From assembly GCF_003815675.1 (NCBI RefSeq), contig NZ_CP033918.1, forward strand, positions 1,364,001 through 1,428,000: 64,000 nt of DNA, written 5' to 3'. Below are positions 2,634 through 25,186 of the stretch, piece after piece. Source of the stretch: Chryseobacterium sp. G0186 (GTDB lineage: Bacteria > Bacteroidota > Bacteroidia > Flavobacteriales > Weeksellaceae). The notes under the pieces are model-generated. The model worked only from the letters and a program-made list of their open reading frames with translations. It was not told where the DNA came from and ran no database searches. Position numbers and translations under genes: made by a program. The stretch's first letter is position 1, and each line of letters begins with the position of its first letter.

Positions 2634-2648
2634 TTCCAAATTTTGGAA
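2634..2648. promoter_or_regulatory. 15-bp palindrome TTCCA-N5-TGGAA, copy 1
   Basis: TTCCAAATTTTGGAA is a dyad lying in the gap between the hybrid kinase and the receiver gene, 80 bp before the start codon at 2729. The same half-sites with the same 5-bp AT spacer recur at 9712 and 15132, each time in a gap before a new transcription unit of the polysaccharide locus. It is inferred to be a binding site for one dimeric regulator. Two further weak inverted repeats (CCTGT/ACAGG and ACAATAA/TTATTGT) lie between it and the gene and may form leader structure. No good -33/-7 promoter was found here. Confidence 0.55.
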
Positions 2649-2728
2649 AAGAAAGACATTTAAATACCTGTTTTTCAAATAATTAAATACAGGCACAATA
2701 ATAGACTTATTGTTTTCAAATTAAAAAA

Positions 2729-3169
2729 ATGGAAACAAATAAACAAAATTTAAAGTTTTTTATTGTAGATGATGACAGGTTCTGTGCAAATGTATATGAG
2801 CAATATTTGAAAAATCATCATTATGAAGACATTAATTGCTTTGGCAGTGGCGAAGAATCCCTGGATGAGCTTCAGCACAAGCCGGACATCATTTTTCTGG
2901 ATCACAACATGGAAGACCTGAACGGTTTTGAGGTTCTAAAGAAAATTAAGCGTTTTGACCCCAACATTTATGTGATCATGGTCTCTGCACAGGAAAACAT
3001 AGATACTGCAGTAAATGCGCTTAAATACGGAGCATTTGACTATCTGGTAAAAGATGCAAATGTTTGCGAAAAAATGACAGAAACTATAGACAAAATCTTG
3101 AAAATAAGAGAAGAAATGTCTCAAAACAAATTAAAAGGTTTCCGAAAATTCTTTTCAATTTTATTTTAA
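2729..3169 (+). CDS. Stand-alone response regulator receiver (REC)
   Basis: This 146-residue protein has one receiver domain (about residues 8-128) with acidic residues VDDD near the N terminus, phospho-acceptor D58 in IIFLDHNMEDLNG, the conserved Ser/Thr position in MVSAQ and Lys in LVKDA. After the domain there is only a short basic tail and no DNA-binding output. It therefore probably works as a phosphate shuttle or by protein contact. It is the first gene of the export operon, with 6 bp to the lipoprotein gene, and follows a kinase ending in an HPt domain. The simplest model is that the HPt phosphorylates this receiver to adjust polysaccharide output. The family is certain and the role is inferred. 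Confidence 0.92.
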   Translation: METNKQNLKFFIVDDDRFCANVYEQYLKNHHYEDINCFGSGEESLDELQHKPDIIFLDHNMEDLNGFEVLKKIKRFDPNIYVIMVSAQENIDTAVNALKYGAFDYLVKDANVCEKMTETIDKILKIREEMSQNKLKGFRKFFSILF

Positions 3170-3175
3170 AAAACT

Positions 3176-3907
3176 ATGGCCAAAAAATTCATCATATCAT
3201 TCATTTTCATGCTTTTACTTTTTTCCTGTAAAACATATAACGTGCTGGAAGAAGAGCAGCCATCACGAAATATGAAGGATTTCAGTTTCGACCCGAATTA
3301 CGAATACAAAATCCGCAAAGATGACAAAATAACACTTTCAGTTTGGGGGCAGGACGACCTTAGCGTGGGATCCGTATATGGTATTTATAACTCTAACGAG
3401 GTCTATGGAAAATGGCTTTTGGTGGATATTAACGGAAATATTGAAATTCCAAAATTAGGAACAACTTCTGTGATTGGAAAATCTTTGCCCGAGCTAAAGG
3501 AAGAAATAAAAACCAAACTTAAAAAATGGCTTGTAAACCCTATTGTGGATGTGAAAGTTCTTAACAAAGAAATTGCAGTGATGGGTGAAGTACGAAATCC
3601 TGCAGTGATTCAGGTCGATAAGGATCAGAATACATTGCTTGAACTCATCTCAAAAACAGGAGGTTTTGAAATGTATGCCAATTTAAAATCGGTGAAAATT
3701 TTAAGACAGGAAGGCGAAAATGTAAGGGTTACCAACATCGATCTTACCAAAATGAAAGATGTTCCCAATCAGAATATTATCCTTCATCCGGGAGACTATG
3801 TGATTGTACCTTCTAAGAAGAGTAAGGATTTTGATAAAAGAGTCTCTACCATTATTCCTTTTACAACAGTGACATCCGCCGCTGCTATATTAATTAATCT
3901 GCTGTAA
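3176..3907 (+). CDS. Polysaccharide export outer-membrane lipoprotein (Wza/OPX family)
   Basis: A lipoprotein signal peptide ends in LLFSC, with lipidated Cys18. The Poly_export domain follows (about residues 45-140; YKIRKDDKITLSVWGQDDL is typical), then an SLBB-type domain (about 147-210; VMGEVRNPAVIQV). The C-terminal segment TIIPFTTVTSAAAILINLL is hydrophobic. Wza-type proteins form the outer-membrane exit channel for capsule or exopolysaccharide and dock on the inner-membrane co-polymerase, here the next gene 8 bp downstream. At 243 residues it is shorter than E. coli Wza but normal for Bacteroidota. The family is well supported. Confidence 0.93.
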   Translation: MAKKFIISFIFMLLLFSCKTYNVLEEEQPSRNMKDFSFDPNYEYKIRKDDKITLSVWGQDDLSVGSVYGIYNSNEVYGKWLLVDINGNIEIPKLGTTSVIGKSLPELKEEIKTKLKKWLVNPIVDVKVLNKEIAVMGEVRNPAVIQVDKDQNTLLELISKTGGFEMYANLKSVKILRQEGENVRVTNIDLTKMKDVPNQNIILHPGDYVIVPSKKSKDFDKRVSTIIPFTTVTSAAAILINLL

Positions 3908-3915
3908 ATATTACC

Positions 3916-6060
3916 ATGATGAACAATGAAAATATCCGGTTTCTCAAACCTTTGCTAAGAGGTTTACCCATTGTAATCCTTGCCATGGTAATTTCTGTAT
4001 TGGTAGCAAAAAAATACCTTAATTATGTAACACCTATGTACGAAAGTACGGCAAAGCTAAAACTTGCTGATACTCAGCAGGGCGTTCCGAGTGCCAATCT
4101 TTTTAAAGATTTTGATGTGTTTGCCTCTGCCAATAAAATCAGCACAGAGATTGAGGTTTTAAAATCAACCTCACTGATTGAAAAAACACTCTCAAAGCTC
4201 CCCCTGTCTACAGAAATTTACAGAAAAGGAAAAGTTCAGTCGGTTGAACTTTTTAATGATTCGCCTATTAAAGTAGCAGCGACCTTCAGTGATAATAAAA
4301 ATAATGACAAAAAATTCCTGTTAAATGTCCTATCCAAACAAACCTACTCTATTAGCGTTCCCGGTACTACCAGACCTAAGAAAGGAAATTTCGGAACTCC
4401 GGTTCGTATAGCGAATGGGCAAATACTCATCAGCCTTAATGAAAATTACATTCAGACCAGACCAGATGTTAAAATCATTGATCAATATGAAATTGAATTT
4501 TTAAGCAGAGAAAAACTTCTGGATAACATCAATAAAAACCTGGATATCGTTTCTGTAGACAAAGACGTTCCGGTGATCCGGATCAATTATAAAAGCAATG
4601 TACCTGAAAAAGCGGCATTAATCGTCAATACCCTTGCAGAAACCTACATTCAGGATTATATTGAAAATAAATACCGTGCCGCCAATACCACTGTAGATTT
4701 CCTCAAAGGAGAAATTGGGCAGGCAAACCATAAACTTTCTGATGTAGAAAATCAGATTGAAAACTACAAAAATAAGGAACACATCATCAATGTTCCGCAG
4801 GAAACCGAAACGGATTTACGGAAAATATCCCAGCTCAAAATCCAAAAAAGCAACCTGAAAATGAGTCTGGATGCAATAAAGGATCTTAACGGATATATTG
4901 CACAGGGTAAAGACAATTATCTGGATCTTGCCACCAATTTTGAGGCTTTTAATGATCTTCTTTCTACAGAAATGATGAAAAATATAAAGCAGTTACAGGC
5001 AGAAAAAAAAGATCTTCTTCTCACCTATACCCCGGAACACGAAAAGGTAAAAATAATAGATACTAAAATCAAAGATCTTACAGACTACCAAACCGAAAGC
5101 ATCAGGAATACACAAAAAAATCTGCAGATCAAATACAATGATATCGATCAGGATATCCGTGTCGCTGAACAGGCTTTTGTAGGCTTACCGGAAAAAGAAA
5201 AGCTCCTTAACATTATGAACAGAGAGTTTAATCTTTATGAAAAAAATTATAATTTCCTTAATGAAAAAAGAATAGATGCCGAAATTGCCAAAGCAGCGAA
5301 AATTTCATTTCACAAAATTATTACCAGGGGAGAGATTTCTACCCATCCTGTATCTCCTATGCGTTCTATCATTATCATTGTAGCAGTTATAATGAGCATG
5401 ATAGGATCTATTGCACTTATCTATGCCATCCATTTTGCCAAAGCAAAAGTAAACGATGTTTATACGATTGAGAAAAACAGTTCCATTCCTATCGCTTTCA
5501 CAACGCCTTTTATTAAAAAAAGAGAAAGAATACCTTATTATTTTCTTGAGAATATTCTTGAAATGGAACTCAAAGGCATCATTGCGGAAAAAAATATCAT
5601 CTGTATAACTTCTTATGACAATCCCGAACATCATACCTTCCACTCCAAAAACCTCATTAAGGCACTACAGATGCAATCTAAAAAAGTATTGGTGATAGAT
5701 GTCTCCAATACCTTAAAAGATATTCAGGCAGAGCATTATATCAATTTTTCCGGGGACGAAAATCTTAAACTTACTTCAACGGATATTCATAACATGATCC
5801 GTGAAAAAATAAAAAGTGCAGACATTTGTATTATTAATAATCAGGCCATCAGACAAGGGAAAATGCCACTTCTTTTTCTGAAAATTGCCGATCAGAATCT
5901 TTTCCTTTTAGACAGCCGGAAAACTGCTGCCAAAAGTATTATGAGCGTAGAACTGCTAAAAGATGAATATAAGCTTGATAATCTATGGTTCATACTCAAT
6001 AAAGAAGACTACAATCCGAGCATCCTCACAACCGTAAAAAAATTAATCCAAAAAAAATAA
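3916..6060 (+). CDS. GumC/Wzz-type polysaccharide co-polymerase with degenerate BY-kinase domain
   Basis: This 714-residue inner-membrane protein controls chain length and bridges to the export lipoprotein. An N-terminal membrane helix (about 16-33) precedes the Wzz domain, a long periplasmic coiled-coil region (about 255-445) and a second helix (about 483-508) after the usual P-x-x-P turn (THPVSPMRS). The cytoplasmic tail keeps the fold order of a bacterial tyrosine kinase: ITS at 564-566, then a helix, then KVLVIDVS like a Walker A' strand. However, the P-loop position reads SYDNPEHHTFH, with no GK[ST], and there is no C-terminal tyrosine cluster. It is therefore predicted not to bind ATP in the normal way. 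No separate Wzc kinase lies in the window. The gene ends 3 bp before the flippase start. Confidence 0.9.
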   Translation: MMNNENIRFLKPLLRGLPIVILAMVISVLVAKKYLNYVTPMYESTAKLKLADTQQGVPSANLFKDFDVFASANKISTEIEVLKSTSLIEKTLSKLPLSTEIYRKGKVQSVELFNDSPIKVAATFSDNKNNDKKFLLNVLSKQTYSISVPGTTRPKKGNFGTPVRIANGQILISLNENYIQTRPDVKIIDQYEIEFLSREKLLDNINKNLDIVSVDKDVPVIRINYKSNVPEKAALIVNTLAETYIQDYIENKYRAANTTVDFLKGEIGQANHKLSDVENQIENYKNKEHIINVPQETETDLRKISQLKIQKSNLKMSLDAIKDLNGYIAQGKDNYLDLATNFEAFNDLLSTEMMKNIKQLQAEKKDLLLTYTPEHEKVKIIDTKIKDLTDYQTESIRNTQKNLQIKYNDIDQDIRVAEQAFVGLPEKEKLLNIMNREFNLYEKNYNFLNEKRIDAEIAKAAKISFHKIITRGEISTHPVSPMRSIIIIVAVIMSMIGSIALIYAIHFAKAKVNDVYTIEKNSSIPIAFTTPFIKKRERIPYYFLENILEMELKGIIAEKNIICITSYDNPEHHTFHSKNLIKALQMQSKKVLVIDVSNTLKDIQAEHYINFSGDENLKLTSTDIHNMIREKIKSADICIINNQAIRQGKMPLLFLKIADQNLFLLDSRKTAAKSIMSVELLKDEYKLDNLWFILNKEDYNPSILTTVKKLIQKK

Positions 6061-6063
6061 ACG

Positions 6064-7290
6064 GTGAAAAAGCTGAAAGAAATAGCGTCCAAACAATCAT
6101 CTCTGGTCTTCACAGATCAGCTGATATTCAGTGTATCCAACTTTCTGCTTACTTTTTTGCTGGCCAGGAAACTGAGTATTTCAGATTTTGGTTTGTTTTC
6201 TTCTGTCCTTTTGGTAACCTATCTTCTTGTGGGGATCTGCAATGCAGTTATTGTACAGCCGTTCCAGATTTCAGCGGCAAAAGAATTCAGCAGAAAATCG
6301 CTGGGATTTGTTTTTCAGGCTGCTTTCCTGTTGATTTTTATTTTTGCTTTGCTATTGTTTACAGTTAAGTTTTTACCTATTCCCTCCTTAGATTTTTTTA
6401 AGACAAACTTATCAGCGGTTATTCTTCTTACAACCGCCTATATTTTTCAGGATTTTGTCAGAAAGATCTTATTGACAGTTGATCGTATTTACCTCGTACT
6501 TTTTATTGACAGTATTTTTCTGGCTGTATTCCCTTTAATCTGGTTTGAACAGAACCTCAATGTATCCAAAAGTTTTTACATTATTGGGGTTATTAATTTT
6601 GTAGCATCCATTCCGGGAGTCATCTACTGCATCAGACATTCAGAATTTAGCCGAAAAAACAGCGCACTCTTCCACTATCATTTTATGGAAGGAAAATGGC
6701 TCCTGAGTGCCTCCGTTGTACAATGGTTTTCCAATAACTTCTTTACCCTTGTCGCAGGTATTTATCTTGGTATTAATGCATTGGGAGCATTAAGGCTTGT
6801 ACAGTCATTCTTTGGAGTCATCAACATCGTTCTACAAACTGTTGAAAACTATTATCTTCCGAAAACAGCTCAGCTTCATTATCAGAATAAAGAACAGGAA
6901 AAAAAAGAACTTCTTAAAAATATGTCAAAGGGAATGATGGTACTGGGAATTCTTATTGCCGGCTTCTTTATCTTTTCAGACCCTATTATAACTTTTCTCG
7001 GAGGACAAAAATACCATCAGTATGGTTTTGTTATCCGTCTGATATCAGTTTTGTATATCGTTATCCTGTATGGCTATCCTACCCGAATTGCTATCAGAGT
7101 TTTAGAACAAAATAAAGCTTTCTTTATCGGCTACTGCATTTCTTTTGTTTTCTCGCTCCTGAGTTTTCATTTCCTCTTAAAGTATTTTGAACTGTATGGA
7201 GCCGTTTCAGGACTTATGATCAATCAGATTCTAATGATTGTGTACTGGAAGATCCTTCTTAACAAAAAAAATATTTCTGTATGGGCATAG
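6064..7290 (+). CDS. Wzx-type polysaccharide flippase (MOP superfamily)
   Basis: This 408-residue protein is almost entirely hydrophobic, with about 12 predicted membrane helices and short charged loops. It begins KEIASKQSSLVFTDQLIFSVSNFLLTFLLAR, the normal start of polysaccharide flippases. The start codon is GTG, three bases after the preceding stop, and no in-frame ATG gives a complete first helix. Wzx proteins move undecaprenyl-linked repeat units across the inner membrane. It overlaps the next gene by 10 bp, which suggests translational coupling. Substrate specificity cannot be read from the sequence. Confidence 0.88.
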   Translation: MKKLKEIASKQSSLVFTDQLIFSVSNFLLTFLLARKLSISDFGLFSSVLLVTYLLVGICNAVIVQPFQISAAKEFSRKSLGFVFQAAFLLIFIFALLLFTVKFLPIPSLDFFKTNLSAVILLTTAYIFQDFVRKILLTVDRIYLVLFIDSIFLAVFPLIWFEQNLNVSKSFYIIGVINFVASIPGVIYCIRHSEFSRKNSALFHYHFMEGKWLLSASVVQWFSNNFFTLVAGIYLGINALGALRLVQSFFGVINIVLQTVENYYLPKTAQLHYQNKEQEKKELLKNMSKGMMVLGILIAGFFIFSDPIITFLGGQKYHQYGFVIRLISVLYIVILYGYPTRIAIRVLEQNKAFFIGYCISFVFSLLSFHFLLKYFELYGAVSGLMINQILMIVYWKILLNKKNISVWA

Positions 7291-8396
7291 TGCATATTAT
7301 ATTAGGTAAAGCCAATCCCGAAAAAATGAACGGGGTCAATAAAGTGGTGTACAATCTGGCAACCCAACAAGCTGAAAAGTCCGGAAAGGTAGAAGTATGG
7401 GGAATTGCTGAAAATACCGAGATCAACTATCCGGAAAGAAATTTTAAAACCAAAGTTTTTCAAAAAAGTAAGAACCCTTTTTCGATTCCTCAAAATCTTA
7501 AAAAAGAAATTCTGAAGGCTGATCATAACACCATTTTTCACCTTCATGGAGGATGGATTCCGGTATACTATTCTTTAAGTAAATTCCTGAAAAAACATCA
7601 GCGTAAATTTGTAATTACGCCTCACGGAGCCTATAATACGGTTGCCATGAACAAAAATAAATGGATAAAGAAGATTTATTTAAGGTTTTGTGAAAAGAAG
7701 GTAATCAGAAATGCATCGAAAATACACTGTATTGGTGAAAGTGAAATAGAAGGACTCCAATCTATATTTCCGACAGACAAAACTGTTCTTATCACTTATG
7801 GATTCGACAAAATAGTAAACAGCTTTCCTGAAAAAGCACACGACAGCTCTCTCCTGTTCGGCTTTATCGGAAGACTGGATATTTTTACCAAAGGACTGGA
7901 TATTCTTTTGGACAGCTTTTCAGATTTTATCAAAGAAATTCCTGATACAAAGCTATGGATCATTGGAGACAGTAATGAAAAGTATCAGCTTCAGCAAAAA
8001 ATAAAAGATCTTAAGCTTGAAAACAAAGTAAAACTATTGGGAAGTAAATTCGGAGATGAAAAGAATTCTCTATTAAGTCATATGGATGTCTTTGTACATC
8101 CTTCCAGAAATGAAGGACTGCCTGTTTCGGTCATAGAAGCTGCCAATTTTGGAAAGCCCTGCATCGTTACAAAAAATACCAATATCGGATATTTAATTGA
8201 TGAATATGGTGCCGGTATCAACATTCCCTACCCTGACCGAAAATTATTACTCCAGGCTATGCGGGATATGTACGCAATATGGACAGACAAAAACCAATAC
8301 AGCACAATGTCTCAGAATGCGTTGAAAATGGTTGAAGAATCATTCGATTGGGGGCATATCATCACTAAAATGAATTCTGGACTTTATCATCTTTAG
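7281..8396 (+). CDS. Glycosyltransferase family 4 (GT-B fold)
   Basis: This 371-residue protein has an N-terminal donor-side start IVHIILGKANPEKMNGVNKVVYNLA with the glycine-rich turn of GT4 enzymes. It also has HGGWIP and TPHGAYN acceptor-side motifs, the interdomain GFIGRLDIFTKGLDILLDSF segment, and the sugar-nucleotide signature HPSRNEGLPVSVIEAANFGKP (EGLPVSVIEA is the E-x7-E type motif). It probably adds a sugar to the lipid-linked repeat unit on the cytoplasmic face. The start overlaps the flippase end by 10 bp and the polymerase follows after 3 bp. The sugar transferred is unknown. Confidence 0.9.
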   Translation: MGIVHIILGKANPEKMNGVNKVVYNLATQQAEKSGKVEVWGIAENTEINYPERNFKTKVFQKSKNPFSIPQNLKKEILKADHNTIFHLHGGWIPVYYSLSKFLKKHQRKFVITPHGAYNTVAMNKNKWIKKIYLRFCEKKVIRNASKIHCIGESEIEGLQSIFPTDKTVLITYGFDKIVNSFPEKAHDSSLLFGFIGRLDIFTKGLDILLDSFSDFIKEIPDTKLWIIGDSNEKYQLQQKIKDLKLENKVKLLGSKFGDEKNSLLSHMDVFVHPSRNEGLPVSVIEAANFGKPCIVTKNTNIGYLIDEYGAGINIPYPDRKLLLQAMRDMYAIWTDKNQYSTMSQNALKMVEESFDWGHIITKMNSGLYHL

Positions 8397-8399
8397 AAC

Positions 8400-9689
8400 A
8401 TGGAAACACTTACTATCTCTCACCAAAAATTTTTAAAAACAATAAACAACCAACTCTTTATTGTTCTTTTATTAATGGTTGCCTGCTTTTTTACCTGGAG
8501 TGAGAATGTTGCCATTACAAGAGCCATAAAAGTAGTGGGAAGAATGGGAGTTATGTTTTCTTCCATACTTATCTATCAGAAAATAATCAGGTATGGCAGC
8601 ATCAATTCTCTGGCTTACAAAAATATCTTCTCTCCTATTCTTTACATGACCTATCTTACATTGGGGTTTATCTCCTTTTCGTGGAGTACCAACCCAGGCT
8701 TCAGCGCTCTCCAGTGGTTTATGACTTTCCAAAGTTTTGTTTTCGCCTATTTTTTTGTGAAAAGCCTTAAAATTCTGGATATTTATTTTGAAGGCCACAA
8801 TATCAGGCTCTATCATTTGCTTGGTAATTCTGTTTTTATTCTTCAATTGATTTTCGTCATTGGAATGTGGGTGTCTCCTGATGTTTTTTTCCGTCTCACA
8901 GATGGCGGTGAGGAAGCAAGACTTGGCGGAACTTTAATGAATCCTAACGAACTGGGAATGTTAGCCGGTGTAGGATGTGCCTGCCTTATTTTTGATCTTT
9001 ACCGCTTTAAAAATAAAATATGGACCATCATCAAAATTCTTATCATCATGTACGCTCTGTATATGACAGGATCCAGATCTTCTCTTATCGGAGTATTGCT
9101 CATCATATTTTTTCATGTGAACCAAACGAAAAAGAAAACCCTTAAATTCGGAATTATAGCCGTCGTAGCTGCAGTAGCACCATTTGCGGTATACAGTATC
9201 ATTTTGAAGGGAGGAGACCAATCCCGTCTGGAAGAAGTAATGAGTCTTACAGGAAGGCTTCCTTTCTGGAAGGCACTGATAACAGAAGGCTTACCAAGAG
9301 AACCGCTTTTAGGATTCGGTTTTATGCGGATCGATTACAAAGAATTTTTTCAGAGTGCCCATACCTATCCCGGAAAAATGACGCATAATACCTTTATGCA
9401 GGTACTGATGAATTTGGGATTCATTGGTTTTACAATTGTTTTATTTCAGGTGTTTTTTACCGTAAAATCTGTTTTATCTGAACAAAAAGAAATTAAGCTC
9501 ATGCTGATCGGAATTTTGATCCCTGTTGTTATTAATTCTTTTACAGAATTTGGAATCTTTGGTGAGAGTAATTATGGCATCATGTTTTACCAGATTATCA
9601 TTTTTTCCATTGCCTTCAGGAACAACAATCATCTTACCCGTCCGCAAAAAATTATACTAAGAAAAAAACGGCCGGATCTTACAATCTGA
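8400..9689 (+). CDS. Wzy-like polysaccharide polymerase (O-antigen ligase/polymerase family)
   Basis: This 429-residue integral membrane protein has about 10-12 helices. Its large periplasmic loop in the second half (GGDQSRLEEVMSLTGRLPFW, then GFGFMRIDY and AHTYPGKMTHNTFMQVLMNLG) carries the Arg, Gly and His/Asn pattern of the Wzy/WaaL family (H-N-x-x-x-x-x-x-x-G). It is inferred to join repeat units in the periplasm in a Wzx/Wzy pathway, consistent with the adjacent flippase and co-polymerase. It is the last gene of the first unit; 131 bp containing a palindrome follow. Polymerase is preferred over ligase because of the neighbours. Confidence 0.85.
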   Translation: METLTISHQKFLKTINNQLFIVLLLMVACFFTWSENVAITRAIKVVGRMGVMFSSILIYQKIIRYGSINSLAYKNIFSPILYMTYLTLGFISFSWSTNPGFSALQWFMTFQSFVFAYFFVKSLKILDIYFEGHNIRLYHLLGNSVFILQLIFVIGMWVSPDVFFRLTDGGEEARLGGTLMNPNELGMLAGVGCACLIFDLYRFKNKIWTIIKILIIMYALYMTGSRSSLIGVLLIIFFHVNQTKKKTLKFGIIAVVAAVAPFAVYSIILKGGDQSRLEEVMSLTGRLPFWKALITEGLPREPLLGFGFMRIDYKEFFQSAHTYPGKMTHNTFMQVLMNLGFIGFTIVLFQVFFTVKSVLSEQKEIKLMLIGILIPVVINSFTEFGIFGESNYGIMFYQIIIFSIAFRNNNHLTRPQKIILRKKRPDLTI

Positions 9690-9711
9690 AATTCCAGCAC
9701 TTACACTATTT

Positions 9712-9726
9712 TTCCATTTTTTGGAA
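9712..9726. promoter_or_regulatory. 15-bp palindrome TTCCA-N5-TGGAA, copy 2
   Basis: TTCCATTTTTTGGAA lies in the 131-bp gap after the polymerase gene, 94 bp before the start of the 769-residue fusion gene. It is identical to the copy at 15132 and differs from the copy at 2634 only in the AT spacer. The dyad is followed by very A-rich DNA. It is inferred to be an operator for the second transcription unit. Confidence 0.55.
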
Positions 9727-9820
9727 AATAAAAACAAAAAATAATATACAAAATACTGAAATACAAACACTTAAATACTTGGCAAACTATTTACATCCTT
9801 TTTAATATACAAGAAATGCC

Positions 9821-12130
9821 ATGAAAAATATATTTAAAAATACAGGATACAGATTGTTTGCGAAACAACAGCCGGGAGCAGTGAAAATTTCTTTTTCTTA
9901 CATCCCTAACCCCGATGGAAGTGTAAGATGGTTTTGGAATTCAAATTCAAAAAAACCACTGTTTTTAAAATTCTATAATGTGGCTACCCTGAAGGCAAAA
10001 CTCTTCTCATGGCTGGTAGAATTACTATTTGTACTGCATCTGCAGAAATTGGTTTTCAAAAAAGAAACTTTATATTATATAGCCGGTGAAAAACCTATTT
10101 TCGACATCGAAAATGACTGGGCAATTTTTACCGGAACCATAGGTCCTAATAATAAATGTCTTTTATACTCTAATGGGTGCTTTTATAAAATAGCAGACAC
10201 CATAAATGCAAAAAAACTTATTAAAAAAGAATGTACCGCTATTAGCTATGCCGCAAAAAGCAGCCTGTACACTATTCCATCGGCTTTACTTCATAATGAA
10301 AGCATTCTGCAGCTCAGCGATATTTCTGAAAACGGGAATAGAAAAAATGAGTTTGGGGAAATTCATGCCAAAGCTCTGCAGGGAATTAAAGAAAGATATC
10401 AGGGAAGCTGTAGAATATCAGAGTGGAAGTATTTTCAGAGCCTGAAAGAACATTTCAGTGCAATCAGAGACGAAAGGATCCCGCCCAATATGATAAGAAA
10501 ACTCAATACAATTCTTACCCATATCGATGAAAATGAAAGCATAGATCTTTCTTTTTCTCATGGTGATTTTACTTCCTGGAACTGTTATATAAAAGATCAT
10601 ACCCTGGCAATCTATGATTGGGAACTGGCATCCTTCGAAAAACCAAAAGGATTTGATTTTTTTCATTTCATCATCCAAAACGGTATTCTGATTCAGAAAA
10701 AGTCCTGGAAGAATATTTTTAATGAGATTAAGGAAAAAAATGCGATAGCCTTTCAGTATGATGATAAAGAACTTGAGAAATATTTAAAATTCTATCTTCT
10801 TACCAATACATTATCATATCTGAAAATATATTCTGAACAGGAAAAATGGCATCACCAGATCCATTGGCTTTTACAGACCTGGACTGAAGCTTTGAATATT
10901 TTTATCACAGAAAATAATACAGAAAGAGAACTTTTGATCATGGATATTTTTGATTATCTGTATCATACCGATTATGCTACATTAAAGTTTCATAACGAAG
11001 CGCCTGAAAATCTGAAATTAAATTCTGATATCGATATGATTATATCTTCCCGGAATGCAAAAAAGATGATTAAATTTTTAACTGCCAACAGTCTCGTACA
11101 AAACGTTATAACCGTTAAAAAATCGTTTATGTACTCCGTAAGAATTATCACGAAGTATCATGAAATTCTTAACCTTGACCTCATCTCTCAGTTGAAATGG
11201 AAATACCTGCAGATCATGAATGCAAATGAAGTTTTGACAAACAAATTTAAAAACAGTTTTGGAGTCTACAAAGTTTCTGAAAAAGATACAGCACGGTTTA
11301 TCGACCTGTTTTATCATCTTAATGAATCTGAAATTCCTGATCTGTATAAAAATTTTGTTTCAGAACATTTGAATCCTCGAAAAACAGATGATAAAAAAAT
11401 GATAATAAAAGCTATCAAAACGGAAGCTTCCAACAAAGGATTCCGTTTTCTGAAAAATGTATACCACTATCTGAAAGATTCTTTTTCAGAAAAAGGATTC
11501 ATCGTGACATTCAGTGGTGTGGACGGAGCAGGAAAATCAACCGTTATTTCTGAAGTTTCCGAGCTTATTGAGAAACGGTACCGAAGACCTGTAAAAGTAT
11601 TGAGACACAGACCTTCTCTTCTTCCTATTCTGAGTGTATGGACGAAAGGTAAAGAAAAAGCCCACGAGGATGCGGTAAATTCACTGCCAAGACAAGGAAA
11701 CAATAAGAGTTCTGTATCTTCTTTCTTCAGATTCGGGTATTATTACACAGATTATATTTTAGGGCAGTTTATTATTTACCTCAAATATGTCTTAAGAGGA
11801 AAAATAGTGCTGTATGACAGATATTACTTCGACTTTATTGCAGATGCCAAACGAAGCAATATCCAACTTCCAAAGATGCTAACTGAAACCGGATATCATC
11901 TGTTGATGAAACCGAAATTCAATTTCTTCCTGTATGCTGCTCCTGAAAAAATCCTCAGCAGAAAAAGAGAACTTTCTTATCGCTCTATATGTGACCTGAC
12001 TGCAGAATACAGCACATTGTTTTCAAAACTGGAACAGAGAAACCAAAATGTAAAATATCTTTCCATCGAAAATAATGATCTTGAAACCACTTTGGGCACT
12101 ATAATGAACACCATAATTACTGCAAAATGA
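9821..12130 (+). CDS. Fusion: phosphotransferase (APH-like) + nucleotidyltransferase-like + thymidylate kinase-like P-loop
   Basis: This 769-residue multidomain protein is predicted cytoplasmic. The middle of the first half has the kinase catalytic motif SHGDFTSWN (H247, D249, N254), followed by IYDWELASF as the metal-binding DFG-like Asp. Together these are the signature of aminoglycoside/choline-kinase-like phosphotransferases. At about residues 365-400 LKLNSDIDMIIS resembles a nucleotidyltransferase-fold Asp-x-Asp motif. From about 558 a P-loop kinase domain begins with GVDGAGKST (566-574), followed by LYDRYYFDF, the DR-Y motif of thymidylate kinases. It may make or modify an activated sugar or phosphorylate a glycan, but the substrate is not known. 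It shares 4 bp with the next gene (ATGA). Domain calls are solid for the first and third domains and tentative for the middle one. Confidence 0.82.
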   Translation: MKNIFKNTGYRLFAKQQPGAVKISFSYIPNPDGSVRWFWNSNSKKPLFLKFYNVATLKAKLFSWLVELLFVLHLQKLVFKKETLYYIAGEKPIFDIENDWAIFTGTIGPNNKCLLYSNGCFYKIADTINAKKLIKKECTAISYAAKSSLYTIPSALLHNESILQLSDISENGNRKNEFGEIHAKALQGIKERYQGSCRISEWKYFQSLKEHFSAIRDERIPPNMIRKLNTILTHIDENESIDLSFSHGDFTSWNCYIKDHTLAIYDWELASFEKPKGFDFFHFIIQNGILIQKKSWKNIFNEIKEKNAIAFQYDDKELEKYLKFYLLTNTLSYLKIYSEQEKWHHQIHWLLQTWTEALNIFITENNTERELLIMDIFDYLYHTDYATLKFHNEAPENLKLNSDIDMIISSRNAKKMIKFLTANSLVQNVITVKKSFMYSVRIITKYHEILNLDLISQLKWKYLQIMNANEVLTNKFKNSFGVYKVSEKDTARFIDLFYHLNESEIPDLYKNFVSEHLNPRKTDDKKMIIKAIKTEASNKGFRFLKNVYHYLKDSFSEKGFIVTFSGVDGAGKSTVISEVSELIEKRYRRPVKVLRHRPSLLPILSVWTKGKEKAHEDAVNSLPRQGNNKSSVSSFFRFGYYYTDYILGQFIIYLKYVLRGKIVLYDRYYFDFIADAKRSNIQLPKMLTETGYHLLMKPKFNFFLYAAPEKILSRKRELSYRSICDLTAEYSTLFSKLEQRNQNVKYLSIENNDLETTLGTIMNTIITAK

Positions 12131-12867
12131 AACCAATTGTTGAAAAAATCATAAGACTTAGAAATCCTGATTTTACGATCGATGGTGCATTGAACTCCGG
12201 AGCTATTCTTCAGCTGGTATGGATTCAGCTCTGGAGCATCATCAGGGGATTAAAGGTTATTTTCTTCTTTAAAAATCCAAAAGGAATGCTTTTAGGGAAA
12301 AGAACCAGCTTTTTTAATCCTTCAAAAATGAAATGGGGAAAATTCCTGAGACTGGGAAATGATGTCTATATTTCTGCCTTGTCAAAACAGGGAATAGATT
12401 TCGGAAACAATGTTTCCATTGGAGCTTTCAGCAGAATCATCGTTTCCACTTCTTTCAATAATATCGGAGAAAAGATAATAATAGGAAACAATGTGGGCAT
12501 TGGAGAATTTGCTTATCTGGGAGGTTCCGGAGGACTGGAAATCGGCGATGAATGCATCGTTGGGCAGTACCTGAGCTGTCATCCGGAAAATCATAATTAT
12601 GAGGATTTAGATATTTCCATAAGACATCAGGGAGTTAACAGAAAAGGAATCAAGATTGGGAAAAACTGCTGGATCGGCAGTAAAGTTACCATTTTGGATG
12701 GTGTAGAGATTGGTGATGGCTGCATTTTGGCGGCAGGAAGTGTGATTACAAAATCTTTTCCTGATAACAGCATTATAGGAGGCATTCCTGCAAAACTAAT
12801 AAAAACAAGAACTCATGGCAACCCATCAAACTATACTGGCAACTTGCTACGCAGTGAATCCTTATAA
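12127..12867 (+). CDS. Left-handed beta-helix (hexapeptide repeat) acyltransferase
   Basis: This 246-residue protein has imperfect hexapeptide repeats ([LIV]-G-x4) from about residue 75. They include IGNNVGIGEFAYLGGSGG, a histidine pair in the active-site region (SCHPENHNYED), IGKNCWIGSKVTILDGVEIG and the family ending GGIPAKLIK. This pattern matches WcaF/Maa/LpxA-type O-acetyl- or N-acyltransferases, which decorate sugars. The N-terminal 60 residues contain a hydrophobic segment (LQLVWIQLWSIIRGLKVIFFF) that may anchor it to the membrane. It starts inside the stop of the fusion gene, and its last 53 bp overlap the next glycosyltransferase, an unusually long overlap. Confidence 0.88.
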   Translation: MKPIVEKIIRLRNPDFTIDGALNSGAILQLVWIQLWSIIRGLKVIFFFKNPKGMLLGKRTSFFNPSKMKWGKFLRLGNDVYISALSKQGIDFGNNVSIGAFSRIIVSTSFNNIGEKIIIGNNVGIGEFAYLGGSGGLEIGDECIVGQYLSCHPENHNYEDLDISIRHQGVNRKGIKIGKNCWIGSKVTILDGVEIGDGCILAAGSVITKSFPDNSIIGGIPAKLIKTRTHGNPSNYTGNLLRSESL

Positions 12868-14047
12868 AGGTTCTGAAGATGCGATGGGCTGGAATTTTGT
12901 CTATCAAATTGCCAGATTCCGAAAAGTGATCGCTATTACAAGGGAAAATAACAGAGACCATATTGAGAAATATATGGCAGAAAATCCTGATACCGTTTAT
13001 CAGAATATGAGTTTTCTCTATTTTGATCTTCCCTATTGGATGCGTTTCTGGAAAAAGGGAAACCGGGGAGCCATGCTGTATTATTATCTTTGGCAGAAAG
13101 GAATTATCTCATTTATCAAAAAACAGAAACTGGATTTTGATATTGTACATAATGTCAATTTCCATAACGACTGGACGCCCAGTTTTTTATGGAAGCTTCA
13201 TAAGCCAATGGTCTGGGGACCTGTAGGACATCACCCAATTATTCCAAAACAGTATCTGCGAGATTATCCGAAGAAATATTTTATGAAAGACCGTCTCACG
13301 TGGATGGTGAAAAATTTCTTCTGGAACTTTTCACCTTCATTAAGGAACACGATCCAACATTCAGATCATATCTGGTGTATGAATACCGGAGTTCCTGAAA
13401 AGCTCGGTCTTCCTGAACATAAATATTCACTCTATCCGTCCGTAGCTTCGGAAGATTTTTTTCAAAGCAGTGAGATTCCTGTAAAATCTGATTTTACGGT
13501 GATCAGCGTGGGAAGATTTGTTCCGTTAAAAGGTTTTGATTTGACCATAAGATCATTTGCAGGGTTTATCAATAGCCTTCCGGAAAAAGACAGAGCGCAA
13601 TGCAGGCTGATCCTGGTAGGAACAGGTGAACAAAAAGAATTTTACCTGCGTCTTATTACCGAAAACCAGATGAATGATTATATTGAAATCATTGAATGGA
13701 TCGACCGAAGAGACCTGATGAAAATGTACCAAAAAGCTTCCGTATTTCTTTTTCCTTCACATGAAGGAGCTGGAATGGTGGTTCCGGAAGCGCTTTCTTT
13801 TGGATTACCGGTGGTATGTCTTCAAAATGAAGGCCCAGGAGAATTTGTGAATCAACAGTGTGGCATTACAGTTCCCCAGCAGGAATATAATAAGACCATA
13901 GAAGGTTTAAGCAGTGCATTGCTCAGATTATTCCTGGATAAAAATCTTCAGAAAGAAATGAGTATCGGAGCCAGAAAACATTATTTAGAAAGATTCTCCT
14001 GGGAAAAAAGAGGAGAACATCTCAACAACATTTATAACCAACTGTAA
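12815..14047 (+). CDS. Glycosyltransferase family 4 (GT-B fold)
   Basis: This 410-residue enzyme starts TILATCYAVNPYKGSEDAMGW, a common GT4 opening (AYACEPGKGSE-like). It contains WGPVGHHP in the acceptor domain, VISVGRFVPLKGFDLTIRSF at the domain joint, and FPSHEGAGMVVPEALSFGLP with the catalytic E-x7-E. The start at 12815 lies inside the upstream acyltransferase gene but is needed because the first beta strand would otherwise be lost. It is inferred to add a sugar to the repeat unit. The next gene follows after 1 bp. Confidence 0.9.
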   Translation: MATHQTILATCYAVNPYKGSEDAMGWNFVYQIARFRKVIAITRENNRDHIEKYMAENPDTVYQNMSFLYFDLPYWMRFWKKGNRGAMLYYYLWQKGIISFIKKQKLDFDIVHNVNFHNDWTPSFLWKLHKPMVWGPVGHHPIIPKQYLRDYPKKYFMKDRLTWMVKNFFWNFSPSLRNTIQHSDHIWCMNTGVPEKLGLPEHKYSLYPSVASEDFFQSSEIPVKSDFTVISVGRFVPLKGFDLTIRSFAGFINSLPEKDRAQCRLILVGTGEQKEFYLRLITENQMNDYIEIIEWIDRRDLMKMYQKASVFLFPSHEGAGMVVPEALSFGLPVVCLQNEGPGEFVNQQCGITVPQQEYNKTIEGLSSALLRLFLDKNLQKEMSIGARKHYLERFSWEKRGEHLNNIYNQL

Positions 14048-14048
14048 G

Positions 14049-15125
14049 ATGAAAAGAATTGTTGCCATCCATTTATTGAACGATTACAGCGGGAGTCCAA
14101 AAGTACTGATGCAGCTTTTGAAAGCATGGACAAAAAACGGAATTGATGCTCACCTTTTTACTTCCGGCGGAAGAACAGGGTTTCTCTCCGACATCCCCAA
14201 CGTTAAAAATCATTTCTTTTGGTATCGGTTTTCTCCCAATGCAATGGTCAGAATCTGTAATTTTTTCGTGAGTCAGTTTCTTTTGATGATCAATCTTTTA
14301 TATTTTCTAAAAAAGCAGGACATCGTCTATATCAATACGGTGCTTCCTTTTGGGGCAGCTATTGCGGGAAAAATAAAAGGCTGCAAAATCATTTACCATA
14401 TCCATGAAACCTCTGTAAAACCTAAAATATTTAAAAATTTTCTTTTCGGAATCGCAAAGTTCACGGCGGATAAGATCGTTTTTGTTTCAGATTATCTCTT
14501 AAAACAGGAATCTCTGATAGATCATCAGGTTCTTCTCTATAATGTTTTGGAAAGTGATTTTACCGATCAGGCAGATCAGTTCCGATATGTGGAAAAGCCG
14601 GTTCCGATTGTCCTGATGATCTGTTCTTTAAAAATATACAAAGGCGTTGACGAATTTTTAAAATTAGCAGAAAAAAATTACAGTTACCTATTCAAATTGG
14701 TTGTAAATGCTTCAGAAAAGGAAATTCAGGAGTATTTTAAAGGGAAAATAATTCCGGATAATATTACCATTTATCCTACACAAACCAATACCCATCCTTT
14801 TTATCTGGAAGCAAGCATCATCGTCAATTTGTCGCACCCTGATCTTTGGGTAGAGACTTTCGGACTGACAATTCTGGAAGGAATGCGTTACCGTCTCCCG
14901 GCTATTGTTCCTCCGGTTGGCGGGGTGACCGAATTGGTGAAAGACGGTAAAAACGGATTTTTGATTCATTCTAAAGATATCGACGAATTATCTGAAAAGA
15001 TTACGTATATATTGAGCAATGCATCCGTGTACCAGTCGCTCAGTGAGGCCTCTTACCAGACAAGTCTTTTGTTTTCAGAAGATTATTTTGAAAAAGAATC
15101 GCTGCAGATTATTTCCAATTTATAA
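14049..15125 (+). CDS. Glycosyltransferase family 4 (GT-B fold)
   Basis: This 358-residue protein opens with RIVAIHLLNDYSGSPKVLMQLLKAW, matching GT4 enzymes with a G-[SG]-P-K turn. It has YHIHETSVKP, a joint region VLMICSLKIYKGVDEFLKLAE and a donor-binding segment VETFGLTILEGMRYRLPAIVPPVGG, with the E-x7-E motif shifted to ETFGLTILEG. It is the last gene of the second unit; 126 bp with a palindrome and a promoter-like sequence follow. The sugar is unknown. Confidence 0.88.
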   Translation: MKRIVAIHLLNDYSGSPKVLMQLLKAWTKNGIDAHLFTSGGRTGFLSDIPNVKNHFFWYRFSPNAMVRICNFFVSQFLLMINLLYFLKKQDIVYINTVLPFGAAIAGKIKGCKIIYHIHETSVKPKIFKNFLFGIAKFTADKIVFVSDYLLKQESLIDHQVLLYNVLESDFTDQADQFRYVEKPVPIVLMICSLKIYKGVDEFLKLAEKNYSYLFKLVVNASEKEIQEYFKGKIIPDNITIYPTQTNTHPFYLEASIIVNLSHPDLWVETFGLTILEGMRYRLPAIVPPVGGVTELVKDGKNGFLIHSKDIDELSEKITYILSNASVYQSLSEASYQTSLLFSEDYFEKESLQIISNL

Positions 15126-15131
15126 TTTATT

Positions 15132-15146
15132 TTCCATTTTTTGGAA
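15132..15146. promoter_or_regulatory. 15-bp palindrome TTCCA-N5-TGGAA, copy 3
   Basis: TTCCATTTTTTGGAA is identical to the copy at 9712. It lies 105 bp before the glycosyltransferase start at 15252 and ends 32 bp before the TTG of a promoter-like sequence at 15178. This places its centre roughly 70-80 bp upstream of the expected transcription start, a position typical of activator sites. It supports the view that the palindrome is a regulatory site rather than a terminator. Confidence 0.58.
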
Positions 15147-15177: not shown

Positions 15178-15207
15178 TTGATTTTCAATTAGTTAAAAAT
15201 TATTTTG
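15178..15207 (+). promoter_or_regulatory. Candidate Bacteroidota promoter (TTG-N19-TTATTTTG)
   Basis: TTG at 15178-15180, a 19-bp spacer and TTATTTTG at 15200-15207 match the Bacteroidota consensus TTG-N19-TAnnTTTG with one mismatch. The predicted start site is near 15213, giving a leader of about 40 bases to the ATG at 15252. It would drive the last two genes of the locus. Confidence 0.45.
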
Positions 15208-15251
15208 CTTTTGGAATATAAATCGTAATACTGTTATCAAATACATCTATT

Positions 15252-16472
15252 ATGAAGACAAAAGTAGCCATCATCGGAACGGTAGGTTTACCTGCTAAAT
15301 ACGGAGGTTTTGAAACTTTAACGGCACATCTTGTAGAAGAGCTTGCCGACACTTATGATTTTACAGTGTACTGCTCATCAAAAAAATACACAAAAGAAGA
15401 AAGAACCGAAAGCTGGAAAGGGGCCAAACTAAAATATCTTCCTCTTGATGCCAACGGAATTCAAAGCATACCGTATGATACGTTATCAATTTTTCATGCT
15501 TTATTTACCAGTGATGTTTTATTGGTTTTAGGAGTTGCAGGCGCCTGGTTATTACCATTTGTAAAGTTATTTACCCGTAAAAAAATCATCATTTCGATTG
15601 ACGGTATAGAATGGAAAAGAGATAAATGGTCTTTACCTGCAAAATTATACCTGTGGTGGGCAGAAAAACTGGCCGTGAGATTTTCCCACATTGATATTTC
15701 TGATAATGAATCTATTCAGGATTATACTTCTTTACGATATAAAACGATCAGCAGGGTCATAGAATATGGTGCAGACCACACAAAAGTCAATTTGACCCCG
15801 ACTTCTGAAAATAGAGAAAAATACCCTTTTTTATCCGAAGAATATGCCGTAAAGGTCTGCAGAATAGAACCGGAAAATCATGTTCATACCATTTTAAAAG
15901 TGTTCAGTGAACTTCCTGACCGTACGCTGGTATTGGTTGGCAACTGGAAAAACAGCCCGTATGGAATTGATATGAAACAGCAATATTCAGGCTTTAAAAA
16001 TATTCATCTTCTGGATCCTATTTATGATCAGGAAATGATAGATCTTATCCGCGGAAATGCTTCTCTCTATATCCACGGACATTCTGCAGGAGGCACCAAT
16101 CCTTCTTTGGTAGAAGCAATGTTTTTAGGGCTGCCCATCATAAGCAATGGAGTTTCTTACAACAGAACCACGACTGAGGATCAGGCTTTTTATTTTTCCA
16201 ATGAAGAAGATCTTAAAAATATTTTAAATAAAATGACAAGAGAAGATCTCCGGAATTGTGCCGTACAGATGAAGAAAATAGCAGAGAGAAGATATACCTG
16301 GAAAAAAATAGCAAAAAAATACAGTCAGCTGATTGAAGAGACTTTTACAGTCAACAAAAAAACAAATGTTTACCCTATGATTTCAAAACTAGACAAAAAA
16401 ATTCTTGAAAAATATAACCTGGAACATTTGAAAAATATACAGCTGTTCAACAGTTCAAATAAAACCGCTTAA
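15252..16472 (+). CDS. Glycosyltransferase with DUF1972 N-terminal domain (rhamnosyltransferase-like)
   Basis: This 406-residue protein has the N terminus VAIIGTVGLPAKYGGFETL, diagnostic of the DUF1972 family of GT4-like enzymes. Its C-terminal half has RIEPENHVHTILKVFSELP, LVLVGNW and HGHSAGGTNPSLVEAMFLGLP (donor-binding Glu region). Related enzymes in streptococcal capsule loci add the second sugar, often rhamnose, to the lipid-linked first sugar. This fits its position directly before a WecA-like initiating enzyme, 11 bp away. The rhamnose assignment is only by family analogy. Confidence 0.88.
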   Translation: MKTKVAIIGTVGLPAKYGGFETLTAHLVEELADTYDFTVYCSSKKYTKEERTESWKGAKLKYLPLDANGIQSIPYDTLSIFHALFTSDVLLVLGVAGAWLLPFVKLFTRKKIIISIDGIEWKRDKWSLPAKLYLWWAEKLAVRFSHIDISDNESIQDYTSLRYKTISRVIEYGADHTKVNLTPTSENREKYPFLSEEYAVKVCRIEPENHVHTILKVFSELPDRTLVLVGNWKNSPYGIDMKQQYSGFKNIHLLDPIYDQEMIDLIRGNASLYIHGHSAGGTNPSLVEAMFLGLPIISNGVSYNRTTTEDQAFYFSNEEDLKNILNKMTREDLRNCAVQMKKIAERRYTWKKIAKKYSQLIEETFTVNKKTNVYPMISKLDKKILEKYNLEHLKNIQLFNSSNKTA

Positions 16473-16483
16473 AACCAAACGCC

Positions 16484-17551
16484 ATGAAAAATTGTATAGA
16501 ACTATCCATACTGGGAATCCTTGCTTTCACTTTATCGATGTGTATCATTCCACTGATGAGAGCGGCTGCCCAAAAACTTAAATTAGTAGATGTTCCCAAT
16601 TCAAGAAAAGTTCATCAGACGGCAATTCCTCTCATTGGAGGCTTAGTGATAGGCATTGTTGTTAGTTTACTGATGGGAGCTACCGTCAGTAACAGCCTGA
16701 AAGAGATACTTCCGATCATCATCACTTCATACATTATGCTGTTGGTAGGAACTTTAGATGACAAAACGGACATTAAGGCAATCTATAAGCTGGGGATACA
16801 ACTCTGTGTGAGTGTAATAATAGCAACATCCGGAATCAGAATATCTTCTTTGTACGGGCTATTCGGAGTTTATGAAATCAATATTTACCTGCAATACATT
16901 CTTACCGTTTTGGTTATTACCACTGCAGTGAACTCCTTTAATCTGATCGATGGAATAGACGGATTGGCAGGAAGCGTTGCAGGAATAGGTTTTGGTCTAT
17001 TTTTTATTATCACTCTTATAGAAGGCAACATTAGCCTTGCAAAAATTGGCATTTTGTTCATCGGCAGTATCCTGGCTTTCCTCAAATACAATTTTTCTCA
17101 AAAAAACAAAATATTTTTAGGGAACTCCGGGGCATTATTTTTAGGATACCTATTAATTTGTTTAGGTATTTATATTACGAAATTTGACCACAGTACGACT
17201 CATTTCCCTTATGGTATCTTCTTCATTCTGTTTGTATTTACCGTCCCGGTCATAGATTCTGTAAGAGTATATGCCGATAGAATTTTAAGAGGAAAATCTG
17301 CATTCAAAGCAGATAAAACACACATCCATCATCACCTTTTACAATTGGGTCTGTCTCACAAAAAAATTACTCTGATCTTTTTATCAATCAATGTTATCGT
17401 TCTTGCCATTCAGATCATTTTTTTCAACAACTACTCTATTTACACCATACTATTTTCTTTCCTTGCTTTTATCCTAATATTTAAGCTGATCAAAGCTATC
17501 AACCTTTTTTTAACCTGGAAAAATAACATCAAACAAATGGAAAATTCATAA
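16484..17551 (+). CDS. WecA/TagO-like undecaprenyl-phosphate HexNAc-1-phosphate transferase
   Basis: This 355-residue, roughly 11-helix membrane enzyme belongs to the MraY/WecA superfamily. Visible motifs are DVPNSRKVHQTAIPLIGG (periplasmic start), LVGTLDDKTDI (DD motif), NSFNLIDGIDGLAG (N-x-x-N-x-x-DG-x-DGLAG), FLGNSGALFLGYLL (the GN[ST]G loop) and HIHHHLLQLGLSHKK (HIHH substrate motif). It transfers a HexNAc-1-phosphate from a UDP-sugar to undecaprenyl phosphate, which starts repeat-unit synthesis. It is the only initiating enzyme seen in this locus and is its last gene. Confidence 0.92.
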   Translation: MKNCIELSILGILAFTLSMCIIPLMRAAAQKLKLVDVPNSRKVHQTAIPLIGGLVIGIVVSLLMGATVSNSLKEILPIIITSYIMLLVGTLDDKTDIKAIYKLGIQLCVSVIIATSGIRISSLYGLFGVYEINIYLQYILTVLVITTAVNSFNLIDGIDGLAGSVAGIGFGLFFIITLIEGNISLAKIGILFIGSILAFLKYNFSQKNKIFLGNSGALFLGYLLICLGIYITKFDHSTTHFPYGIFFILFVFTVPVIDSVRVYADRILRGKSAFKADKTHIHHHLLQLGLSHKKITLIFLSINVIVLAIQIIFFNNYSIYTILFSFLAFILIFKLIKAINLFLTWKNNIKQMENS

Positions 17552-18104
17552 ACATATCTTATAAAATGAAAATAGAATCATATAAAAACTGACATTTATT
17601 TTTTTTTATAGTTTTTTTCAGAAACTAAAATGATTTGGCTGTAAAACAATTGAAATCCTCTGTAAATATTTCACTGCATAATTCGATACTTCTTTGGTTG
17701 TGGGTACAAGACCATTCAAGCCATCTAATTATTGGAAAACTGATAATTTAACTTTTGATGAATGTTAGAAATTAAATTGATAAAAATGAGCCTTGTAATT
17801 CTTGTTTAATTTGGCTTAAACGAATTAAATCATCGATAAAAGTGTTTGAAGATACGCTCGTTAAGGTCACCAAAACCCAAATGGCGCCACTTAAAACAAG
17901 TGGCGCCATTTATTTTTAGAATCTTTTCATTGAAGTATTAAGACACTTAAAATCATGAAAATTTAACTTGATTTTGATCATGATGAATTTAAATATATCT
18001 GATTACAAAATGAGTTTTTATAAAGAAATACAACATACTGCATGAAAGCTAAATAGAGCTCATACATCCATCTCTATCTGTTATTAGTCCATTTATTTTT
18101 AATA
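17552..18104. other. 553-bp intergenic region, possibly with gene remnants
   Basis: No convincing gene lies between the WecA-like gene and the MarR-like gene. A weak hairpin with a T tract (AAAAACT/AGTTTTT, 17584-17616) may end the polysaccharide unit. Further on, stop-free stretches of about 40-45 codons occur on both strands around 17,772-17,917. One of them begins with an ATG on the minus strand at 17909, but that ATG lies in the stem of the strong hairpin listed separately. The stretch may be decayed coding DNA or the body of an unannotated RNA. Confidence 0.3.
17879..17917 (+). terminator. Strong intrinsic terminator, perfect 14-bp stem
   Basis: The left arm AAATGGCGCCACTT (17879-17892), a 5-base loop AAAAC and the right arm (17898-17911) pair perfectly, and ATTTTT follows. 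The GC-rich core stands out in AT-rich DNA. It lies 328 bp after the last polysaccharide gene and about 190 bp from the end of the convergent MarR-like gene, so it is not tight against either. It could end a long 3' untranslated region or a separate small RNA. Confidence 0.7.
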
Positions 18105-19758: not shown

Positions 19759-19785
19759 ATTATTTAGATTATTTATATTCTTATA

Positions 19786-20355: not shown

Positions 20356-20366
20356 CGCAGTAAATA

Positions 20367-21563: not shown

Positions 21564-21578
21564 CAGAATTTTATCTGT

Positions 21579-25181: not shown

Positions 25182-25186
25182 GAAAA

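Follow-up and report, generated by a model that had tools for sequence, protein, structure and literature searches.

A conserved palindrome before three exopolysaccharide operons of Chryseobacterium sp. G0186 as a probable site for a neighbouring NtrC-type sigma-54 activator

The exopolysaccharide (EPS) locus of Chryseobacterium sp. G0186 lies in a 64-kb stretch of its genome (the window) and consists of three units (2729-9689, 9821-15125 and 15252-17551), each preceded by the same 15-mer palindrome, TTCCA-N5-TGGAA, a dyad with two half-sites, and the question is which regulator, if any, reads these copies. Exact copies, to which no strand was assigned, were located at 2634-2648 (TTCCAAATTTTGGAA), 9712-9726 (TTCCATTTTTTGGAA) and 15132-15146 (TTCCATTTTTTGGAA), 80, 94 and 105 nt before the next start codon, respectively; all three sit in long gaps of the locus, and the second and third are identical, including the all-T spacer. 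The initial annotation had placed the motif at 2634, 9712 and 15132, in the longest gaps of the locus and 80-105 bp before start codons, which exact matching confirmed, and its remark that no fourth copy was seen in the gaps inspected was borne out for the whole window, which contains exactly three. Only 0.21 copies were expected, and none of 100 shuffles reached three; with up to two mismatches allowed, 66 matches were found as against 55.7 expected, which is chance level. Our reading is that the palindrome is probably the upstream activator (enhancer) site, one for each unit, of an NtrC-family sigma-54 activator that is dedicated to this locus and whose gene lies just upstream within the cluster.

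In the 5.04-Mb genome (G000), the 15-mer occurred 21 times, as against about 17 expected by scaling from the window, and a reversed control pattern occurred 16 times. Seventeen of the 21 copies fell within open reading frames (ORFs) of at least 80 aa and three were those of the EPS locus; the sole other copy outside an ORF (L009:1490-1530, G000:C1:1513571) was the stem of a GC-rich, terminator-like hairpin with Ts after it. A genome scan without enrichment and a lack of conservation in relatives were the two outcomes that, according to the initial annotation, would refute its proposal; on the first, the outcome went against it, as the bare 15-mer is not enriched genome-wide and stands at background frequency. 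The palindrome combined with TGG-N10-G was also tried as a genus-wide signature and rejected as unspecific, since it matched 162 of 173 genus genomes, and among the combined-pattern matches listed, the rows inspected by eye mostly resembled coding DNA. Because both the 15-mer and the combined pattern are unspecific by frequency, the argument rests on position.

The second check, on relatives, came out in favour of the motif. Upstream regions of three orthologous genes were taken from the window itself, from 21 further genomes of the genus and from loci L061-L076. For the first gene of unit 1, which encodes a receiver-only response regulator (the receiver gene), 36 of 38 regions had the exact palindrome; it was present upstream of the first gene of unit 2 in 31 of 32, and upstream of the first gene of unit 3 in 15 of 18. 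The first set covers Chryseobacterium, Flavobacterium, one Pedobacter, Bacteroidetes metagenome-assembled genomes (MAGs) and one Saprospiraceae MAG, the second includes Chryseobacterium, Flavobacterium and Pedobacter, and the third comprises 17 genus loci and the Saprospiraceae MAG (L076); the last-named was the sole miss at unit 2 (3 mismatches) and had one mismatch at unit 3. The loci of relatives were found by short peptide patterns and are no census. Loci L046-L060 were excluded, 13 of the 15 being taken as genus genomes already in the counts; the exact receiver-gene site was present in 13 of the 15 (not in L052 and L058), and of the two that remained, L051 had it and L058 did not. A spirochaete locus (L077, 35% identity), which was without the site, was likewise excluded. 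Chance occurrence in AT-rich gaps would suit the lack of genome-wide enrichment, but only 0.02-0.03% of shuffled 155-nt stretches held the palindrome, and against such positional conservation across genera we regard it as extremely improbable.

The contrast between gaps and genes was also visible within single loci. All 12 locus genes were found in 17 genus loci, and in these the palindrome was present in the three long gaps in 16/17, 17/17 and 15/17 cases (the gap before the receiver gene being set at a fixed 160 bp), the remaining inner gaps (0-23 bp, mostly too short for a copy) held none, and the 12 genes contained 9 copies in 248 kb, or 0.36 per 10 kb. Over 87 sites, the half-sites were invariant in 82 and changed on one side only in the other five, whereas the spacer took 25 forms, with 24 G/C among its 435 letters; fixed half-sites around a free spacer fit a protein site read at both arms. 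Action as RNA, with the palindrome forming a hairpin that attenuates or terminates transcription at the 3′ end of the operon before it, would agree with the copies starting 6-28 nt past a stop codon and with predicted folds, which gave a small hairpin at copies 2 and 3 and 71-nt stretches that beat most of their shuffles (z -2.95, -2.16 and -1.98). However, one-sided changes leave no compensatory change in the stem, the fold at copy 1 paired the right arm with upstream RNA, none of the three copies was among the 13 terminator-like sites, and a -24 element follows the palindrome at set distances, so that this explanation is very unlikely. Position-specific conservation together with near-invariant half-sites supports the proposal, made in the initial annotation, of one dimeric regulator for the three operons, and the palindrome is real, conserved and very likely functional.

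What kind of promoter the site would serve was asked of the DNA that follows it. Alignment of the upstream regions anchored on a conserved GG gave a layout resembling a -24/-12 promoter, on the + strand, with these elements in the three units: 1) for unit 1, a sigma-54-like -24/-12 element AGGCACAATAATAGAC at 2691-2706 (GG at 2692-2693, G at 2704); 2) for unit 2, a sigma-54-like -24 element TGGCA in 9780-9795 (GG at 9781-9782), with TTACA at -12, where the sigma-54 consensus is TTGCA; and 3) for unit 3, a sigma-54-like -24/-12 element TGGAATATAAATCGTA at 15212-15227 (GG at 15213-15214, G at 15225). Within 40-76 nt past the palindrome, a range picked after the data had been seen, GG-N10-G was present in 37/38 receiver-gene regions (10.5% of shuffles) and 18/18 unit-3 regions (6.0% of shuffles). 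At -24, WGGCW was found in 28/32 unit-2 regions (8.9% of shuffles) and in 25/38 receiver-gene regions, and the best match to the sigma-54 consensus coincided with the conserved GG in 33/38, 26/31 and 17/18 regions of units 1, 2 and 3, respectively. With the -24 GG in all three promoters and the -12 G in two of three, the layout, as read from the DNA, resembles the arrangement in which a sigma-54 promoter is served by an activator site upstream of it.

The usual promoter of Bacteroidota is of the type TTTG / TAnnTTTG, and a different dimeric regulator that binds the palindrome and works on such promoters has to be weighed, as a 15-bp dyad suits many dimeric regulators and the initial annotation had pointed out a promoter-like TTG-N19-TTATTTTG at the third copy. 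The latter is present, but it recurred in only 1 of 18 orthologous regions and is therefore unsupported; the TAnnTTTG promoter (TANNTTTG-type) was rejected, having been found at the right spacing in 0/38, 0/32 and 0/18 regions.

Between palindrome and promoter, a further dyad, of the type TGA-N3-TCA, was located on the + strand at 2669-2677 (TGTTTTTCA), 9757-9765 (TGAAATACA) and 15179-15187 (TGATTTTCA), and its exact form was present in 15/38, 8/31 and 9/18 regions, respectively, as against 0.43, 0.19 and 0.34 expected. This central element resembles the IHF consensus, and the genome encodes two PF00216 proteins, IHF having been considered as a candidate binder. The distance from the end of the palindrome to the GG was 42-45 nt (18 loci), 54-57 nt (13 loci), 61-62 nt (4 loci), 72 and 74 nt at the receiver gene, 54-58 nt (30 loci) at unit 2, and 65-67 nt (15 loci), 54, 55 and 57 nt at unit 3; the groups 42-45, 54-58 and 65-67 nt are about one helical turn apart, with the four loci at 61-62 nt and those at 72 and 74 nt as exceptions. 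When collapsed by our own choice to nine lineage values (44, 55, 72, 55, 56, 66, 57, 55 and 54), from which 61, 62, 62 and 62 (L105-L108) and 74 (L071) were excluded, the distances gave p = 0.025 against a uniform null, with the best period at the edge of the scanned range (10.0). In the excluded loci, a second, decayed palindrome copy was seen by eye 18-19 bp closer to the promoter. The phasing is no more than suggestive of a helical register between palindrome and promoter, and the spacing together with the central element suggests a bent or looped complex.

A candidate for the protein is encoded just outside the window. The genome has one PF04552 (rpoN) match above cut-off. PF00158 matched four of its proteins at more than 229 bits and another four only weakly, at 28-37 bits. 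One of the four strong matches is an NtrC-type activator of 451 aa (L078:10584-11939, i.e. G000:C1:1360583-1361938), whose gene lies about 2.06 kb before the window start and is followed, in order, by the genes for a FIST protein (L078:11940-13082, also outside the window), a hybrid histidine kinase and the receiver-only protein; the kinase gene starts outside the window (L078:13085), and its 3′ part (PAS, HisKA, HATPase, receiver and Hpt) occupies 2-2605 on the + strand. The activator has a receiver, an AAA+ domain (Sigma54_activat, PF00158, E 1.3e-70, with GAFTGA in the translation) and a C-terminal helix region. The C-terminal stretch LDIGKST[IV]Y recurred in 28 of the 29 activators extracted, in a range reaching from Chryseobacterium to the Saprospiraceae MAG; 22 of the 28 read LDIGKSTIY, and only L063, whose C-terminus is different, lacked the stretch. 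It was present in none of the three other activators of the genome; a stretch common to the 28 is expected if all of them read the same half-site. It was also noticed that two MAGs carry an exact palindrome directly before the activator gene (L062:4262 and L063:4326), which suggests autoregulation in these two; no exact copy was found there in the 15 Chryseobacterium loci L046-L060.

The distribution of the genes points to the same protein. At E <= 1e-150, the activator had an ortholog in 22 of 173 genus genomes, and precisely these 22 also hold an ortholog of the receiver gene (at least 64% identity; the 23rd match, G085, is at 32%), and the first gene of unit 2 was found in 18 of the 173, all inside the 22. 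Two of the other activators, searched at this cut-off, were found in 169 and 171 of the 173, some matches of the first being only about 60% identical, and the fourth activator of the genome gave no HTH (helix-turn-helix) match at E <= 1. Of 32 fetched loci, 30 carried the activator and the kinase and 29 the FIST protein, the exceptions being a 4-kb contig (L073), the distant relative L077 and, for the FIST protein, L076. This co-distribution with the EPS locus points to the adjacent activator as the likely owner of the palindrome, and the regulator left unnamed in the initial annotation is thus most likely, judging from gene content, the NtrC-type activator before the window. A different dimeric regulator might draw on the divergence of the adjacent activator's HTH, described below, and on a MarR-like gene at 18105-18791; however, the latter was on none of 21 other genus stretches (about 19.9 kb each), for which reason it was rejected as owner, nor was it on any of 16 further loci, which end about 10 kb past the receiver gene. 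Together with the co-distribution and the promoter counts given above, this makes a different regulator an unlikely explanation, though less so than the two already discussed.

Several observations weigh against ownership by the adjacent activator and against sigma-54 promoters. The unit-2 promoter has no -12 G, GG-N10-G being present in only 3/32 regions, the letter following the -12 G is frequently other than C, and the -24 of unit 3 reads GGAA instead of GGCA, with WGGCW in only 2/18 regions. Scores of single matches to the sigma-54 consensus were moderate and exceeded 95% of their own shuffles in only 15/38, 6/31 and 4/18 regions. In the activator itself, the Fis-type HTH (PF02954) was matched at E 0.16 and HTH_17 at E 0.003, both below cut-off, whereas PF02954 matched two other activators of the genome at 4e-13 and 2.6e-14; the DNA-binding part of the candidate is, by these profiles, divergent or atypical. 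In G016, the activator match (C1:2075497-2076387) covers residues 4-300 in a 311-aa frame, yet the sites are kept; some genes of this locus (L116) are read in pieces, which would be explained by decay of the locus or else by an assembly of poor quality. In five of the 22 genus genomes, namely G011 (L117), G058 (L088), G162 (L111), G167 (L102) and G019 (L115), the receiver gene and its site are kept, as is the activator, while the EPS genes are missing or reduced. Sites kept without EPS genes would reflect either decay or another target. A truncated wza beside part of wecA was observed in G167, and an internal stop in the receiver gene in G162.

With these points taken into account, an enhancer site of the adjacent activator is still the reading that we hold to be probable, and it would work as follows. 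A signal would be sensed by the FIST protein together with the hybrid kinase (GAF, PAS, kinase, receiver and Hpt) and passed on by phosphorylation of the activator's receiver; activator dimers would occupy TTCCA-N5-TGGAA, the centre of which lies some 75-100 bp before each presumed transcription start; at the central element, the DNA would bend; and sigma-54 RNA polymerase would be opened at -24/-12 by the AAA+ domain, so that the three EPS operons are turned on together. The receiver-only protein, the first product of unit 1, may be a feedback or phosphate-sink partner. The initial annotation had tentatively put the regulator downstream of the kinase and receiver at the start of the locus, which holds in part: input from the kinase is plausible, but the receiver-only protein (2729-3169, + strand) has Response_reg as its sole Pfam match, showed no DNA-binding domain in the Pfam search and would itself be among the targets. 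In dozens of loci, the activator, its candidate site, the promoters and the probable target set can be read from a single locus, as a compact and testable EPS switch, in which, if the proposal is true, deletion of one gene should silence the whole polymer. More tentatively, and with rather less than even confidence, we may be dealing with a self-contained, patchily distributed switch of Bacteroidota, comprising a FIST sensor, a hybrid kinase, a receiver-only protein for feedback and an activator whose HTH is divergent, with sigma-54 promoters of a local style (-24 GG strict, -12 relaxed and without G at unit 2), in which enhancer, TGA-N3-TCA dyad and promoter stand in helical register and the dyad is bound by a further partner beyond an IHF/HU-like protein.

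How the locus relates to known systems was considered next. In NtrC / NR(I), the order of receiver and AAA+ domain followed by a C-terminal DNA-binding stretch is the same, and the candidate scored 380 bits to TIGR01818 with an alignment to residue 405; it remains below the equivalog cut-off of 559, and the target genes differ. The binding site of NtrC / NR(I) also differs from TTCCA-N5-TGGAA. NosP/NahK, a FIST protein and a hybrid kinase, act in biofilm control in Pseudomonas and others. Similarly, the FIST gene here adjoins a hybrid kinase gene, and the NosP model aligned over residues 21-354; however, the score was 40.5 bits as against an equivalog cut-off of 450, leaving the FIST family alone in common, nothing in the present data pointed to nitric oxide or haem, and the neighbour here is a sigma-54 activator. 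Sensing of nitric oxide by the FIST protein was rejected, as the similarity is at family level only, and no sequence relative of this protein was found in the PDB at E 0.001.

The closest published design is the two-part site of PrsR, which belongs to the PrsK/PrsR and PEP-CTERM cis-regulatory system described in Proteobacteria (Haft et al. 2006, PMC1569441); as described there, a 17-nt motif 1 is separated from a -24/-12 motif by a spacer of 62.8 nt on average, and the site is co-distributed with the activator across genomes. The present locus shares with it an NtrC-type activator near EPS genes, a two-part site and the co-distribution of site and activator, and the candidate aligned full-length to the PrsR model (TIGR02915), to residue 449. 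It works alike by these features, yet is no member: motif 1 as given in that account ends in TTTACA, in contrast to TTCCA-N5-TGGAA here, the candidate scored 375.8 bits against the TIGR02915 cut-off of 502.6, and the targets here are the EPS operons themselves, in the phylum Bacteroidota. No PF09721 match (exosortase/EpsH) was found in the genome, the control search being positive in 1 of 14 genomes, and no PF07589 match (PEP-CTERM domain proteins) either, the 14 control genomes likewise giving none. As the available text of the sources has it, RpoN dependence has experimental support for one PEP-CTERM gene (PMC9850573), sigma-54 has been linked in general to exopolysaccharide and to further functions of the cell exterior (PMC3162934), and sigma-54 control is less explored outside Pseudomonadota (PMC12316311). 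Judged by titles and abstract openings, with few subscription papers among them, no listed paper connects an EPS locus of Chryseobacterium or Flavobacterium with sigma-54 or with an activator site; in the accessible text of one Chryseobacterium genome report, rpoN, wza and wzc are all named and are not joined (PMC10710014).

The genes of the three units, all on the + strand, were assigned by family matches. After the receiver gene, unit 1 encodes (3176-9689) a Poly_export/Wza-like protein, a Wzz-like protein, a Polysacc_synt flippase, a glycosyltransferase of group 1 and a Wzy_C protein; in the Wzz-type chain-length protein (3916-6060), the C-terminal part was without a kinase family match in Pfam. 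Unit 2 (9821-15125) encodes a 769-aa protein with a P-loop stretch, a hexapeptide transferase and two glycosyltransferases of group 1. The 769-aa protein (9821-12130) had a weak thymidylate-kinase match below cut-off and no further Pfam or NCBIfam family, and it is conserved with the EPS locus. Unit 3 (15252-17551) encodes a DUF1972/glycosyltransferase group 1 protein and a WecA-like sugar-phosphate transferase, and on its 3′ side a long GC-rich hairpin (17879-17912) is terminator-like on both strands. Farther on, inspection of the translations by eye revealed minus-strand genes for a receiver, CheB-like and CheR-like proteins and a large hybrid kinase (19387-26677), a further block of signalling genes next to the EPS locus, and, also by eye, a transposase-like gene (27408-29030) and a gene for a large RHS-repeat-like protein (29619-33254).

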